Below are positions 27,880 through 32,649 of a stretch of 47,135 nucleotides of DNA, in pieces; the first letter of the stretch is position 1; each line of letters opens with the position of its first letter. The position numbers were made by a program, and so were the translations under genes. The stretch is from Haloparvum sedimenti. GTDB taxonomy: Archaea; Halobacteriota; Halobacteria; Halobacteriales; Haloferacaceae. The notes under the pieces were generated by a model, which saw only the letters and a program-made list of their open reading frames with translations, was not told where the DNA came from and made no database searches. The DNA lies in assembly GCF_001462205.1 (NCBI RefSeq), contig NZ_LKIR01000142.1, positions 1 through 47,135 of the forward strand, in the 5' to 3' direction.

Positions 27880-28640
27880 GCCGCGAGGTCCGCGTCGCCG
27901 TCTTCCGCCCCGACGACGAGCGCATCGACGAGGCGGTCGACCTGCTCGACGCGCTCGGGGCGAACCCGGTCCCGGACCCCATGCTCGCGGTCGAGCCGAC
28001 CGGGGCGCTCCCGGCCGCAGGGAGCGCCGACGCCGAGGCGGACTACGTCGTCCTGACGAGCAAGACCGGCGTCGAACTCGCCGCCGACGCGGGCTGGTCC
28101 CCCGGCGACGCGACGCTCGTCGCCATCGGCCCGGCGACTGCAGGCGCAGCCCGTGAGGCGGGCTGGACCGTCGAGCTGACCCCCGAGACGTACTCCTCGG
28201 ACGGGCTGGTTGACCTGCTGTCCGACCGCGTCGACGGCGCACTCGTCGAGGTGGCGCGCTCGGACCACGGGAGTCCGGTCCTGACTGACGGCCTGCGCGA
28301 GGCCGGCGCTGAGGTCCACGAGACGGTCCTCTACCGGTTGGTCAGGCCCGAGAGCGCGGGCGAGTCGGCCGAGCTGGCCGCCGCCGGCGAGCTGGAGGCG
28401 GCGGCGTTCACCTCCTCGCTCACGGTCGAGCACTTCCTCGACGCGGCGGCCGAGCGCGGCGTCCGCGAGGCGGCCGTCGCGGGGCTGAACGACGCCGTCG
28501 TCGGCACCATCGGCCACCCCACCCGGGAGACGGCCGAGAACCACGGCATCGAGGTGGACGTGGTGCCCGACGACGCCACTTTCGAGGCGCTCGCGACCGC
28601 GGTCGTCGAGTGCGCGGCGCCCGCACACCGCGGTCGATAA
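27876..28640 (+). CDS. hemD: Uroporphyrinogen-III synthase
   Basis: HemD closes and inverts ring D of hydroxymethylbilane to give uroporphyrinogen III. It has 254 residues; the family is poorly conserved but recognisable by TSKTGVEL, ATLVAIGPATAGAAREAG, VHETVLYRLV, AAFTSSLTVEHFLD and VVGTIGHPTRETAENHG. The start ATG lies inside the last bases of cobA (ATGA overlap), showing translational coupling. A 13-bp T-rich tandem repeat begins 38 bp after its stop and may terminate the operon. Confidence 0.93.
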   Translation: MSREVRVAVFRPDDERIDEAVDLLDALGANPVPDPMLAVEPTGALPAAGSADAEADYVVLTSKTGVELAADAGWSPGDATLVAIGPATAGAAREAGWTVELTPETYSSDGLVDLLSDRVDGALVEVARSDHGSPVLTDGLREAGAEVHETVLYRLVRPESAGESAELAAAGELEAAAFTSSLTVEHFLDAAAERGVREAAVAGLNDAVVGTIGHPTRETAENHGIEVDVVPDDATFEALATAVVECAAPAHRGR

Positions 28641-28678
28641 GGGGCCGTGGCGGGCGGTCGGCACGGTCCCGGATGCAG

Positions 28679-28730
28679 TTTCTGTGGCCGGTTTCTGTGG
28701 CCGATTTCTGTGGTCGGTTTCTGTAGCCGG
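28679..28730 (+). repeat. 13-bp tandem repeat after hemD
   Basis: Four units of TTTCTGTGGCCGG with one or two changes (28679, 28692, 28705, 28718). Each carries a T-run on the coding strand, 38 bp after the hemD stop. This is a likely multi-site terminator or minisatellite. Confidence 0.7.
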
Positions 28731-28808
28731 GTTCCGGAAGCGGCCGCTCCCGACTGCCGCCGGCCGCGACCGGCTCGACCCACGGATCCAACCGCGGTCG
28801 TCCTTCTA

Positions 28809-28855
28809 AACAACTTCAGTTGTTCTACTACAACTCCGTTGGCAATCTTTATGCG
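28809..28855 (+). promoter_or_regulatory. nrdA promoter with triple inverted half-sites and TATA box
   Basis: AACAACT (28809-28815), TC, AGTTGTT (28818-28824) form a perfect inverted repeat. AGTTGT also pairs with ACAACT at 28830-28835 across TCTACT. The TATA box CTTTATGCG (28848-28855) follows 12 bp later. Transcription would start near 28880, leaving a leader of about 135 nt before nrdA. The half-sites are a candidate operator for ribonucleotide reductase control. Confidence 0.6.
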
Positions 28856-29016
28856 CGTGGCTCCGGAGAGTGTTCGGTACGGTTCGCTCCGGACCGGCGC
28901 GTCGACCGCGCCGCCGCCGACCAGCGGCGCCCCCGGCGCCGTCCAACGTTTCCGAGGAGTGGCGACGCCGTCGCTTGCGAGCGGCGGCGCCGGTCCGGAG
29001 GGACCATCCCCCGAGA

Positions 29017-31620
29017 ATGAGCACGACGACATCCGACCACGCCGCGCGCGACCTGCTGGAGCGGGCGCGCGACGGCCACGAGGACGTACTGGACGACGAG
29101 ACGCTGGACCGACTGGTCTCGGAGATCGAGCGGAACCTCTACGCGGGCGCGGACCGTTCGGAGGTCGCGGACGCGACCGTCGCCGCGCTGACCGCGCGGA
29201 TCGAGCGCGACCCCGCTTACGACGCGATGGCGGCCCGCGTGGCGCGGCACGACTACGCGCGCCGGGTGACCGGCGAGGAGCCGCCCGCGGACGCCGACGC
29301 GTTCGCGGGGACGTACCGCGAGTCCTTCCGCGAGGCCATCGAGCGCGGGTTGGACGCGGACCTGCTGGACGAGCGCATGGGTGCGTACGACCTCGACCGG
29401 CTGGCGGACGCGCTCGTGCCCGCGCGCGACGACCTGTTCGACTACACCGCGATCGACACGCTGGAGGAGCGCTACTACCTCCGGGAGGCGGACGGCGAGC
29501 CGTTCGAGCTCCCGCAGGTCTTCTGGATGCGGGTCGCGATGGGCGTCGCGCTCCGCGAGAACGAGGCGGAGCGGGCGGCGCGCGCCGAGGAGTTCTACGA
29601 GGTGCTGTCGACGCTCCGGTTCGTCCACTCGACGCCGACGCTGTTCCACGCCGGGACGACCCACCCGCAGCTCTCCTCCTGTTACCTCACCACGGTGCCG
29701 GACGATCTGGAGGGCATCTTCGACGCGTACAAGGAACACGCCAAGCTCTCGAAGTGGTCCGGCGGGCTCGGCAACGACTGGACCCCCCTGCGCGCGGATG
29801 GCGCGCTCATCGAGTCGACGGGCGTGGAGGCGACCGGCACCGTTCCGTTCCTGAAGATATCGAACGACGTGACCGGCGCGATCAACCGCTCCGGGAAGCG
29901 GCGCGGGGCCGCGGCGGCCTACCTCGAGGCGTGGCACCTCGACTTCCCGGCGTTCATCGACCTCCGGCGCAACACCGGCGATGAGCGCCGCCGCACCCAC
30001 GACATGAACACCGCCGCGTGGGTGCCGGACCTGTTCATGAAACGCGTCCGGAACGGCGAGGAGTGGACCCTGTTCTCGCCGGACGAGGTGCCCGACCTCC
30101 ACGGCACCTACGGCGCCGAGTTCGCGGAGCTGTACGAGGAGTACGAGGAGCGGGCCGCGAACGGCGAGCTTCGGCAGTACGAGACCGTCGACGCCGCGGA
30201 GCTGTGGCGCGAGACGCTTACCCGGCTGTTCGAGACGGGCCACCCGTGGATCACGTTCAAGGACCCCTGCAACGTTCGGTCGCCGCAGGACCACGTCGGC
30301 GTCGTCAACTCATCGAACCTCTGTACGGAGATCACGCTCAACACGAGCGAGGAGGAGACCGCGGTGTGTAACCTCGGCTCGGTCAACCTCGCGCGCCACA
30401 TGACGTTCCGGGAGGACGCGGCGACCCACCCCGCGCCGAACGCGGTGGCGGGCGCGGCCGCGGGCGGCGCGGAGGGCGCGAGCGAAACGGGCTCCGACGC
30501 CGGTTCCGCGTTCGGCGCGGACGGCGCGGCCGCGGAACTCGACGAAGAGCTGTTCGCCGACACCGTCGAGACGGCGATGCGGATGCTCGACAACGTCGTC
30601 GACCTCAACTTCTACCCGACCGAGAACGCGGAGCGCTCGAACATGCGCCACCGCCCGGTCGGGCTCGGCATGATGGGGTTCCACGAGGCGCTCCAGCTCG
30701 CGCGGGTCCCGATGAACTCGGAGCGGGCGCTCTCGTTCGCGGACCGGGCAGGGGAACTGCTCGGCTACCACGCCATCGACAACTCCGCGAAGCTGGCGGG
30801 CGAGCGCGGCGCCTACGAAACGTTCGAGGGGTCGAAGTGGGACCGCGACCTGCTCCCACAGGACACCCTCGACCTGCTGGAGGCCGAGCGCGACGAGGCG
30901 ATCCCGGTCCCCCGCGAGGAGTCGCTCGACTGGGACGCCGTCCGGGAGCGGATCGCCGAGCACGGCATGCGCAACTCCAACACCACGGCGGTGGCGCCGA
31001 CCGCGACCATCTCAACCATCGCGGGAACGACGCCCTCCATCGAGCCCGCCTACTCGAACCTCTACGTCAAGTCGAACATGACCGGCGACTTCACGGTCGT
31101 CAACGAGCGGCTGGTCGCGGACCTCAAAGCCGAGGGGCAGTGGGGTTCGGAGGCGCTCGACCGCCTGAAGTACCACGACGGCGCGGTCGGCGAGCTGGAC
31201 CTGCCCGGCGAGCTGTCGGAGCTGTATCGGGGGGCCTTCGAGATCGACCCGCGACACCAGCTCCGGCTCACCGCGCGCCGCGGGGTCTGGATCGACCAGA
31301 GCCAGTCGCACAACGTCTTCTTCCCGTCGACGGACGGCTCGCTGCTCGCGGACGTCTACGAGACCGCCTGGGAGCTCGGGCTGAAGACGACCTACTACCT
31401 GCGGACGCTCGGCGCCTCCAGCATCGAGAAGTCGACGCTCGACATGGCCGAGTACGACGACACGCAGTCGCGGGACGGCCGCGGGGCCGCCGGAGGACGG
31501 ACCGAGGAGTCGGACGCGGCCGCGGACGGCGGACCCGAGACGGACGGCGAGACCGCGGCCGACGGCGCCGCCTGCGACCTCCCGACCGTCGAGGACCCGA
31601 CCTGCGAGTCCTGCCAGTAG
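29017..31620 (+). CDS. nrdA: Ribonucleoside-diphosphate reductase, class I alpha subunit
   Basis: An 867-residue catalytic subunit that reduces ribonucleotides to deoxyribonucleotides. The active-site set is present: Cys222 (SSCYLTT), the radical centre N434-L-C436-T-E438 and the second redox Cys451 (AVCNLGS). The C-terminal shuttle pair is TCESCQ. The N-terminal 80 residues lack a clear ATP-cone consensus, so dATP inhibition is uncertain. A low-complexity Ala/Gly insertion lies at about 466-508 and an acidic tail linker near 820-855. ATG 29017 (MSTTTSDHAARDLL) is chosen as the first start of normal composition; the open frame upstream to 28870 is Arg/Pro-rich. nrdB follows after 36 bp, so they form one operon. 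Confidence 0.95.
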   Translation: MSTTTSDHAARDLLERARDGHEDVLDDETLDRLVSEIERNLYAGADRSEVADATVAALTARIERDPAYDAMAARVARHDYARRVTGEEPPADADAFAGTYRESFREAIERGLDADLLDERMGAYDLDRLADALVPARDDLFDYTAIDTLEERYYLREADGEPFELPQVFWMRVAMGVALRENEAERAARAEEFYEVLSTLRFVHSTPTLFHAGTTHPQLSSCYLTTVPDDLEGIFDAYKEHAKLSKWSGGLGNDWTPLRADGALIESTGVEATGTVPFLKISNDVTGAINRSGKRRGAAAAYLEAWHLDFPAFIDLRRNTGDERRRTHDMNTAAWVPDLFMKRVRNGEEWTLFSPDEVPDLHGTYGAEFAELYEEYEERAANGELRQYETVDAAELWRETLTRLFETGHPWITFKDPCNVRSPQDHVGVVNSSNLCTEITLNTSEEETAVCNLGSVNLARHMTFREDAATHPAPNAVAGAAAGGAEGASETGSDAGSAFGADGAAAELDEELFADTVETAMRMLDNVVDLNFYPTENAERSNMRHRPVGLGMMGFHEALQLARVPMNSERALSFADRAGELLGYHAIDNSAKLAGERGAYETFEGSKWDRDLLPQDTLDLLEAERDEAIPVPREESLDWDAVRERIAEHGMRNSNTTAVAPTATISTIAGTTPSIEPAYSNLYVKSNMTGDFTVVNERLVADLKAEGQWGSEALDRLKYHDGAVGELDLPGELSELYRGAFEIDPRHQLRLTARRGVWIDQSQSHNVFFPSTDGSLLADVYETAWELGLKTTYYLRTLGASSIEKSTLDMAEYDDTQSRDGRGAAGGRTEESDAAADGGPETDGETAADGAACDLPTVEDPTCESCQ

Positions 31621-31656: not shown

Positions 31657-32649
31657 ATGCCAATCATCAACGACGACGCGCAACACGATCCGAACAAGAT
31701 ACTGCCGATCGACTACGACTGGGCGCGAGAGTACTACGAGGACGGCGTCAACAACAACTGGGTGCCCGAGGAGATCCCGATGGCCGACGACGTGCGCCAG
31801 TGGGAGAACGACGAGCTCACCGACGCCGAGCGCCAGCTCGTCGAGTGGAACCTCGGGTTCTTCTCGACCGCGGAGTCGCTCACCGCCAACAACCTCGTGC
31901 TTGCGGTGTACGACTACGTCACCGCTCCCGAGTGTCGCCAGTACCTGCTCAGACAGGCCTACGAGGAGGCGGTCCACACGGACACGTTCATCTACTGCTG
32001 TGACTCGCTCGGCTTCGACCCCGACTACCTCTACGGGATGTACGACCGCATCCCCGCCATCGAGGCGAAAGACGAGTTCGTCGTGGACCTCACGCGAGCC
32101 ATCGACCGACCCGACTTCACCATCGAGGACGACGCGGACGTGCGGGCGTTCCTCCGCGACCTCGTCGGGTTCTACGTCATCATGGAGGGGATCTTCTTCT
32201 ACGCCGGCTTCGCGATGATGCTCGCGCTGAAGCGGCGCGGGAAGATGGTCGGCGTCGGCGAGCAGTTCGAGTACATCATGCGCGACGAGTCGCTCCACCT
32301 CAACTTCGGCGTCGACCTGATCAACACGATCCGCGAGGAGAACCCCGGCGTCTGGACCGACGAGTTCGAGGCCGAGATCGCGGACCTGATCGAGGAGGCG
32401 GTGGCGCTGGAGTCGACCTACGCCGAGGAGGCGTGTCCCCCGGACCTGATGGGGATGTCCGCCGAGGGGTTCGTGGAGTACGTCGAGTACGTCGCGGACC
32501 GGCGGCTCACGCAACTCGGGATGGCCGAGCAGTTCGGCACGGAGAACCCGTTCCCGTGGATGTCCGAGGCGACCGACCTCGCCCGCGAGGCCAACTTCTT
32601 CGAGCGGCAGGTCACCGAGTACCAGTCCGGCGGCTCGCTCGACTGGTAG
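31657..32649 (+). CDS. nrdB: Ribonucleotide reductase beta subunit, class Ic-like (Phe at the radical position)
   Basis: A 330-residue radical-generating subunit. Metal ligands by alignment to class I R2: Glu73, Glu104 and His107 (EEAVHTDTF), Glu177 (MEGIFFY), Glu211 and His214 (DESLH). The residue four after His107, the radical Tyr in class Ia, is Phe111, and the first ligand is Glu rather than Asp. Together these are the signature of class Ic (Mn/Fe, tyrosyl-radical-free) subunits first known from Chlamydia. The C-terminal tail with the penultimate aromatic (GGSLDW) would dock on NrdA. The gap of 36 bp from nrdA shows no separate promoter. Confidence 0.93.
   Translation: MPIINDDAQHDPNKILPIDYDWAREYYEDGVNNNWVPEEIPMADDVRQWENDELTDAERQLVEWNLGFFSTAESLTANNLVLAVYDYVTAPECRQYLLRQAYEEAVHTDTFIYCCDSLGFDPDYLYGMYDRIPAIEAKDEFVVDLTRAIDRPDFTIEDDADVRAFLRDLVGFYVIMEGIFFYAGFAMMLALKRRGKMVGVGEQFEYIMRDESLHLNFGVDLINTIREENPGVWTDEFEAEIADLIEEAVALESTYAEEACPPDLMGMSAEGFVEYVEYVADRRLTQLGMAEQFGTENPFPWMSEATDLAREANFFERQVTEYQSGGSLDW

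Follow-up and report, generated by a model that had tools for sequence, protein, structure and literature searches.

The 47,135-bp stretch of DNA analyzed in this work, referred to here as the window, includes a class I ribonucleotide reductase (RNR) operon. The gene hemD ends at nucleotide 28640 and is followed by a spacer and then by nrdA and nrdB. The features of this region are the following.

28807..28854, + strand: whole conserved element, a putative tandem two-dyad operator with BRE and TATA box (profile matches R2, 28808-28854, and R1, 28807-28854)
28810..28823, no strand assigned: dyad 1, ACAACT-TC-AGTTGT, core CAA-N6-TTG (CAA in 30/33 and TTG in 29/33 nrd promoters)
28830..28842, no strand assigned: dyad 2, ACAACTCCGTTGG (AA-N5/6-TTGG; AA in 33/33 and T[TG]GG in 32/33 nrd promoters)
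28830-28835: third half-site, in dyad 2
28839-28842: fourth half-site, TTGG, in dyad 2
28848..28852, + strand: TATA box TTTAT, a promoter role suggested by its position
28958..28969, + strand: second conserved leader block, AGTGGCGACGCC (27/33 nrd leaders score at least 10 of 12)
29017..31620, + strand: nrdA, class I RNR large chain (PF02867, E 9.8e-178; PF00317)
31657..32649, + strand: nrdB, class I RNR small chain (PF00268, E 3e-88)

In the spacer between hemD and nrdA, a 13-bp unit, TTTCTGTGGCCGG, is also repeated four times in tandem, with variations, at 28679-28730.

An earlier note on this DNA had described two inverted repeats sharing their middle half-site, and both are present: AACAACT-TC-AGTTGTT at 28809-28824 and AGTTGT-TCTACT-ACAACT at 28818-28835. 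Each is the sole match in the window at up to 2 mismatches, about 0.2 being expected by chance. The block is AT-rich, as had been noticed, with a G+C content of 0.40 over 28806-28855 versus 0.707 for the window, where only 0.2% of the 50-mers are equally AT-rich, and the TATA box TTTAT is indeed found 12 bp 3′ of ACAACT. The description of the site as a triple half-site had to be abandoned, since four half-sites are present, the fourth being TTGG, and the conserved unit consists of two tandem dyads. The pairing of AGTTGT with ACAACT over N6 is largely confined to the window; in most relatives GAAA or another NNAA sequence replaces the third ACAA. The dyads are 14 bp each with 6 bp between them, which places their centers about 20 bp, or two helical turns, apart, and the second one ends at the BRE position (GCAATC), which it abuts.

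A set of 80 NrdA-related loci, among which the best named relatives place the window's haloarchaeon close to Halorubrum, included 32 that are haloarchaeal by title or, for MAG L027, by our own reading. These and the window make up the 33 class I nrd promoters tabulated. The 32 haloarchaeal loci have a common design, roughly TAnnACAA-N6-TTGTnnTAnnGAAA-N5/6-TTGGnAAnnTTTAT, which over the 33 promoters amounts to CAA-N6-TTG and, about 20 bp downstream, AA-N5/6-T[TG]GG. Half-sites 1 to 4 are intact in 30, 29, 33, and 32 of the 33 promoters, respectively, and a TATA-like sequence begins 38-40 bp past the start of the first half-site in all of them. The offset between the dyads is 19 bp in Halorubrum and 20 bp in most other genera. 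Column information (10-column means) is 0.13-0.40 bits upstream versus 0.67-1.09 bits within the element, a contrast that is partly an artefact of anchoring the columns on the element.

Two profiles were built from these sites: R1, trained on 29 nrd sites including that of the window, and the hold-out profile R2, trained on 18 sites from other genera only. R2 had a single match in the 47-kb window at E≤10, located at 28808-28854 with an E-value of 1.9e-9, and it matched 14 of 14 held-out haloarchaeal nrdA loci, all at E≤1.9e-5. The dyads are therefore kept upstream of nrdA in close relatives, the point on which the earlier note had proposed that its reading be judged. None of 26 non-haloarchaeal nrdA loci was matched by R2, nothing falling below E 0.3, and the element was found in 0 of 19 viral NrdA loci. 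When the genome from which the window comes (G000) was searched with R1, all 66 first-look candidates being scored, 28807-28854 was the only match at E≤10. A looser single-dyad pattern gave 6 strand matches at 3 places in this genome, none of them the window site, versus 28 for the reversed-pattern control, and for this reason nothing further was drawn from it.

R1 was then applied to 391 genomes of Halobacteria, of which 356 had a match at E≤1; this number is not used as a count of sites because this threshold is loose and one chance match per genome is possible. Among the matches listed, the strongest were those in class I RNR operons with the arrangements nrdA-nrdB, nrdR-nrdA, nrdR-nrdB, and nrdB-nrdA; the two orders of nrdA and nrdB have been attributed to separate bacterial transfers (Lundin 2010, PMC3019208). 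In many of 22 genomes viewed closely the weaker matches were clustered on one contig. From the 87 matches of this 22-genome panel we examined 50, namely 30 supplied loci and 20 of our choice, which are not independent since related genomes recur among them; some of the other 37 are the same palindromic site on the opposite strand. Taking as a fit a target gene at most 700 bp away and pointing away from the site, 39 of the 50 loci fit: 22 with cobalamin genes (a count that includes the cbiT/regulator spacer), 10 with Co/Ni transport genes, 4 with nrdJ, and 3 with class I RNR genes. The site-bearing cobalamin genes include cbiT, cbiX, cobN, cbiH, and cobT, and genes encoding cobalt transporters of the CbtA type or NikA-like binding proteins are also found behind the box. 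CobB, CobN, CbtA, CbiH, CobT, CbiX, ChlI-like, NrdJ, NikA-like, CbiT, CbiL, and CbiE proteins were named through Pfam or NCBIfam on representatives (the CobT assignment being weak in Pfam and clear in NCBIfam), and genes at the remaining loci by similarity to these representatives. The 11 loci with no fit were L132, L135, L145, L152, L159, L233, L235, L242, L245, L247, and L248; L145 and L152, which are near ilvC, look like sites that arose by chance. The site at L132 (G052:C1:1963344), the strongest R1 match of the 22-genome set, precedes a small-molecule-methyltransferase-like gene with weak matches to staphylopine CntL and to CbiT, possibly a metallophore gene of the same regulon.

The same site thus precedes cobalamin or Co/Ni transport genes in 32 of the 50 loci. 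On this sequence evidence the element can be read as a haloarchaeal cobalamin-regulon operator, and since it marks genes for cobalamin synthesis and cobalt uptake in relatives, nrdAB would best be read as a B12-independent member of that regulon. The earlier suggestion of an operator for deoxynucleotide synthesis holds insofar as the site is conserved and operator-like; it is not one of deoxynucleotide synthesis as such, cobalamin and cobalt genes having it too.

As a control, a matrix made of the two dyads alone and trained only on nrd sites was used. It had 4 matches in the 39-kb cobalamin cluster of genome G106, a cluster chosen because of its R1 matches, and 1 match in 221 kb of other loci, which turned out to be the nrdA promoter of G060; the reversed matrix had no matches in either. 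Part of the conserved block is BRE and TATA box, which any promoter has, so a chance or core-promoter pattern with no dedicated regulator had to be considered. The hold-out E-values, the lack of matches in the 26 non-haloarchaeal loci, and the fact that the two dyads by themselves recur at cobalamin genes make such a pattern extremely improbable, and as a full account of the element it is refuted.

Twenty further R1 loci were picked as not obviously nrdA. Eleven of them were class I RNR operons and the remaining 9 are not part of the 50 loci described above; at one of these 9, L121, the element is present and no gene was recognized. At L112 (contig G090:C21) the element is found directly before nrdB, and the stretch between them matches only the last 25 residues of NrdA, as if nrdA had been deleted behind its promoter. 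The same genome, G090, has a second site, before nrdR.

The proximity to nrdR bears on the possibility that the element is a variant NrdR box pair, through which dATP/ATP would be sensed. NrdR often controls its own operon, and in 21 of 24 NrdR-bearing genomes a listed R1 match ends 84-93 bp before the NrdR match (the coordinates of G006, G047, and G048 lie outside those listed). However, the genome of the window (completeness 98.2%) has no TIGR00244 match at E≤0.01, NrdR was matched in only 24 of 145 Halobacteria, 12 of 20 genomes named as NrdR-less have an R1 match at E≤2.4e-5, and boxes are found at cbi genes. The spacing is also unfit: in an NrdR box pair the palindromes are 16 bp long and must be separated by 14-17 or 24-27 bp (PMC12051234), and the present dyads are 14 bp long and 6 bp apart. 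We consider this explanation very improbable, in agreement with the earlier note, which had set the site apart from the known NrdR box. As a general reader of the element, NrdR is ruled out by its absence here, its sparse distribution in Halobacteria, and the mismatch in spacing; it is often a target of the element instead.

Other known regulatory sequences were also compared with the region. No Rfam match that would indicate a cobalamin riboswitch was found at E≤1 in 28600-29100. The TrmB motif is TACT-N7-8-GAGTA (PMC3794607), and by eye the TACT at 28826-28829 is not followed by GAGTA. The UV motif TTTCACTTTCA of Halobacterium (PMC2556686) is different from the element. As for CdrS, no nrd target was found in the passages and table rows of PMC8406309 that were inspected, and the terms sought are absent from PMC7439475.

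From the position and distribution of the element we infer that it is probably a cobalamin-regulon operator at which a B12-responsive dimeric factor represses nrdAB while NrdJ serves. A dimeric transcription factor would bind each CAA-N6-TTG dyad, so that two dimers would lie side by side on the same face of the helix, the second one covering the BRE beside the nrdAB TATA box. When B12 is plentiful, the factor, responding to B12 or to another corrinoid or tetrapyrrole signal, would block TBP/TFB at nrdAB, leaving the cell to depend on NrdJ, which requires B12; a shortage of B12 would release nrdAB. At cbiT, cbiH, cobN, cbiX, and the ChlI-like gene the box centers are about 0-40 bp from the apparent starts, a core-promoter position that fits a repressor. 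The coordinated induction of cbi genes and cobN in virus-infected Haloferax, which the authors read as a demand for B12 on the part of NrdJ (PMC12542753), is consistent with one regulon.

The box found at nrdJ in 4 loci (L146, L147, L160, and L244) would not be expected if B12-independent enzymes were simply repressed; control of the opposite sign is conceivable there. In these loci a TATA-like sequence is about 15 bp farther off from the dyads, and extra ACAACA half-sites can be seen by eye.

Activators that recruit TFB/TBP from sites just upstream of BRE/TATA are known in haloarchaea, GvpE and Bat being examples. The factor could likewise recruit TFB/TBP to nrdAB at low B12 from its position upstream of BRE/TATA, and the rigid spacing of 38-40 bp to the TATA sequence in 33 of 33 promoters would suit an activator as well. 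In addition, the second regulator of the cob/cbi genes inferred in Halobacterium, besides TrmB, is an activator (Todor et al. 2013, PMC3794607). On the other hand, at cbiT, cbiH, and the ChlI-like gene the center of the box is within about 20 bp of the apparent start codon, where an activator would be poorly placed, and we regard an activator site as improbable.

The best candidate for the protein that would read the element is a MarR-type protein with a DUF7839 domain, encoded at G000:C71:30274-31110 in the genome of the window. A match to this protein was found in 145 of 145 genomes. It exists in two forms that are mutually exclusive in the 22-genome panel, where each genome has one copy with the exception of G134, which has two. 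Among the best 30 loci of the candidate, the gene adjoins cbiT or cbiL in 18 and cobT in 1, that is, a cobalamin gene in 19 of 30. The second form, with about 43-51% identity, had a cobalamin neighbor in 0 of 14 loci viewed; genomes with this form carry boxes. In G060 the gene is located behind nrdAB. A strong dyad was found upstream of the candidate in 12 of the 13 loci where the gene was recognized, from 31 tried, and in those 12 loci it faces cbiT; the dyad may belong to the facing cbiT, since at 18 further candidate loci no dyad reached that score.

The model of the candidate encoded in the window's genome (pLDDT 85.1) has a MarR-like N-terminus. The C-terminal part of the L136 protein was modeled alone (pLDDT 94.6), and its residues 60-163, i.e., the portion beyond approximately the first 59 residues, could be aligned to tetrapyrrole methylases using VIA-align on the candidates provided by Foldseek. 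The best 19 structure matches were siroheme synthase, SUMT-type enzymes, a tetrapyrrole methylase domain, and CbiL, with Z 9.7-10.9 and rmsd 2.7-3.1 Å, 95-97 residues being aligned at Z up to 10.9; on this scale, values of 7 to 8 are typical of models that lack a clear match. With Foldseek alone, the C-terminal part had no match at E≤0.001, and its best hit in a sequence search of the PDB had an E-value of 0.24. The predicted C-terminal half thus resembles tetrapyrrole methylases. Although a common fold does not establish a function, a domain able to bind a corrinoid or tetrapyrrole is what a cobalamin regulator would need. A tentative reading, for which we hold somewhat less than even confidence, is that a MarR DNA-binding domain joined to a sensor with the fold of a B12-pathway methylase controls B12 synthesis, cobalt uptake, and the choice of RNR through the tandem dyad, and that class I RNR operons acquired independently of one another were each placed under its control.

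The signal could also be cobalt rather than B12. The element would then be a metal operator whose reader senses cobalt, or nickel, instead of a corrinoid, and nrdAB would follow cobalt status indirectly. The CbtA-type transporters and NikA-like binding proteins behind the box agree with this, as does the N-terminal region of the candidate, which matches SloR by sequence (E 5.7e-6). A B12 signal, however, accounts more directly for the cbi enzymes and for a target that is the B12-independent isozyme of a B12 enzyme, and the predicted C-terminal fold points to tetrapyrroles; a metal operator seems unlikely to us.

With respect to a B12-responsive repressor, the genome of the window, an assembly of 143 contigs, has three tetrapyrrole methylases, the uroporphyrinogen-III methylase of the window, a CbiE, and an unnamed one, so that de novo synthesis of B12 is unlikely. 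The candidate gene is divergent from cbiE-cbiA in this genome, and the spacer between it and cbiE has no box. The link of this genome to B12 is drawn from its relatives, since the nrdA site is the only one found at E≤10 and none was found before its cobalamin genes, cbiE included. An NrdJ-like protein is encoded in two pieces on two contigs (G000:C28:45172-45954 and G000:C40:34087-34728), perhaps as a result of an assembly break or an insertion. Control of nrdAB by B12 makes sense where B12 is imported and both types of reductase are present. A panel of 30 genomes was inspected for RNR alpha genes. More than one was found in 8 genomes, and in 7 of these the extra alpha gene is located directly after a listed R1 match (the matches of G006 lie outside those listed). 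Another 10 genomes, with no R1 match among those listed, have one alpha gene each, and the remaining 12 combine a single alpha gene with R1 matches elsewhere.

To our knowledge, control by B12 of a B12-independent RNR is otherwise known only through bacterial riboswitches. In Streptomyces, nrdABS is found behind a B12 riboswitch. In delta-proteobacteria a B12-element precedes nrdDG, and silencing by B12 in favor of NrdJ was proposed (PMC545781). The inferred logic would be the same in both cases, the B12-independent enzyme being turned off when B12 serves NrdJ, and the bacterial riboswitch, like the present element, is common to B12 synthesis and transport genes. The difference is that here the site would be an operator in double-stranded DNA, located at the promoter; the leader showed no riboswitch. 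An archaeal DNA operator that does the job of a riboswitch would, if confirmed, represent convergent wiring, and it would be common to many haloarchaeal genera and to class I RNR operons of differing arrangement. NrdR boxes, too, precede RNR operons as pairs of palindromes on the same face of the helix, but they differ in motif and spacing, NrdR was not found here, and the present element is also located at cobalamin genes. A CBL-box was reportedly proposed by Rodionov and coworkers in 2003 as the DNA site of a B12 regulator postulated for some archaea. It may be identical to the present element or overlap it. In the open-access literature searched we recognized no description of the element. 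The TrmB system of Halobacterium salinarum likewise involves transcriptional control of the cob/cbi pathway with a second regulator inferred, but its motif is not the present element and that second regulator was taken to be an activator (PMC3794607). If our reading is correct, it could put a name to the second regulator still missing for the cobalamin genes of haloarchaea, and it allows the dependence of DNA-precursor supply on B12 to be tested directly in haloarchaea amenable to genetics.

The leaders downstream of the element share a second block, AGTGGCRACRCY, located at 28958-28969 in the window. In 27 of 33 class I nrd leaders it lies 106-157 bp past the point where the element starts, with a score of at least 10 of 12, which is also reached by 47 of 990 random pieces of the same size from the same loci. 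The exact block was found in 39 of 268 loci, all of which had been fetched for their RNR genes, and a few of its copies lie outside the leader. In the nrdR-bearing operons of Halobellus (L022 and L079) the start region of nrdR, GTGACAAC.ATGGA, is found at about the same place, and the block may therefore be either a remnant of nrdR or a signal within the leader. By eye, a short hairpin, AGUG-GNRA-CACU, can be traced in it.
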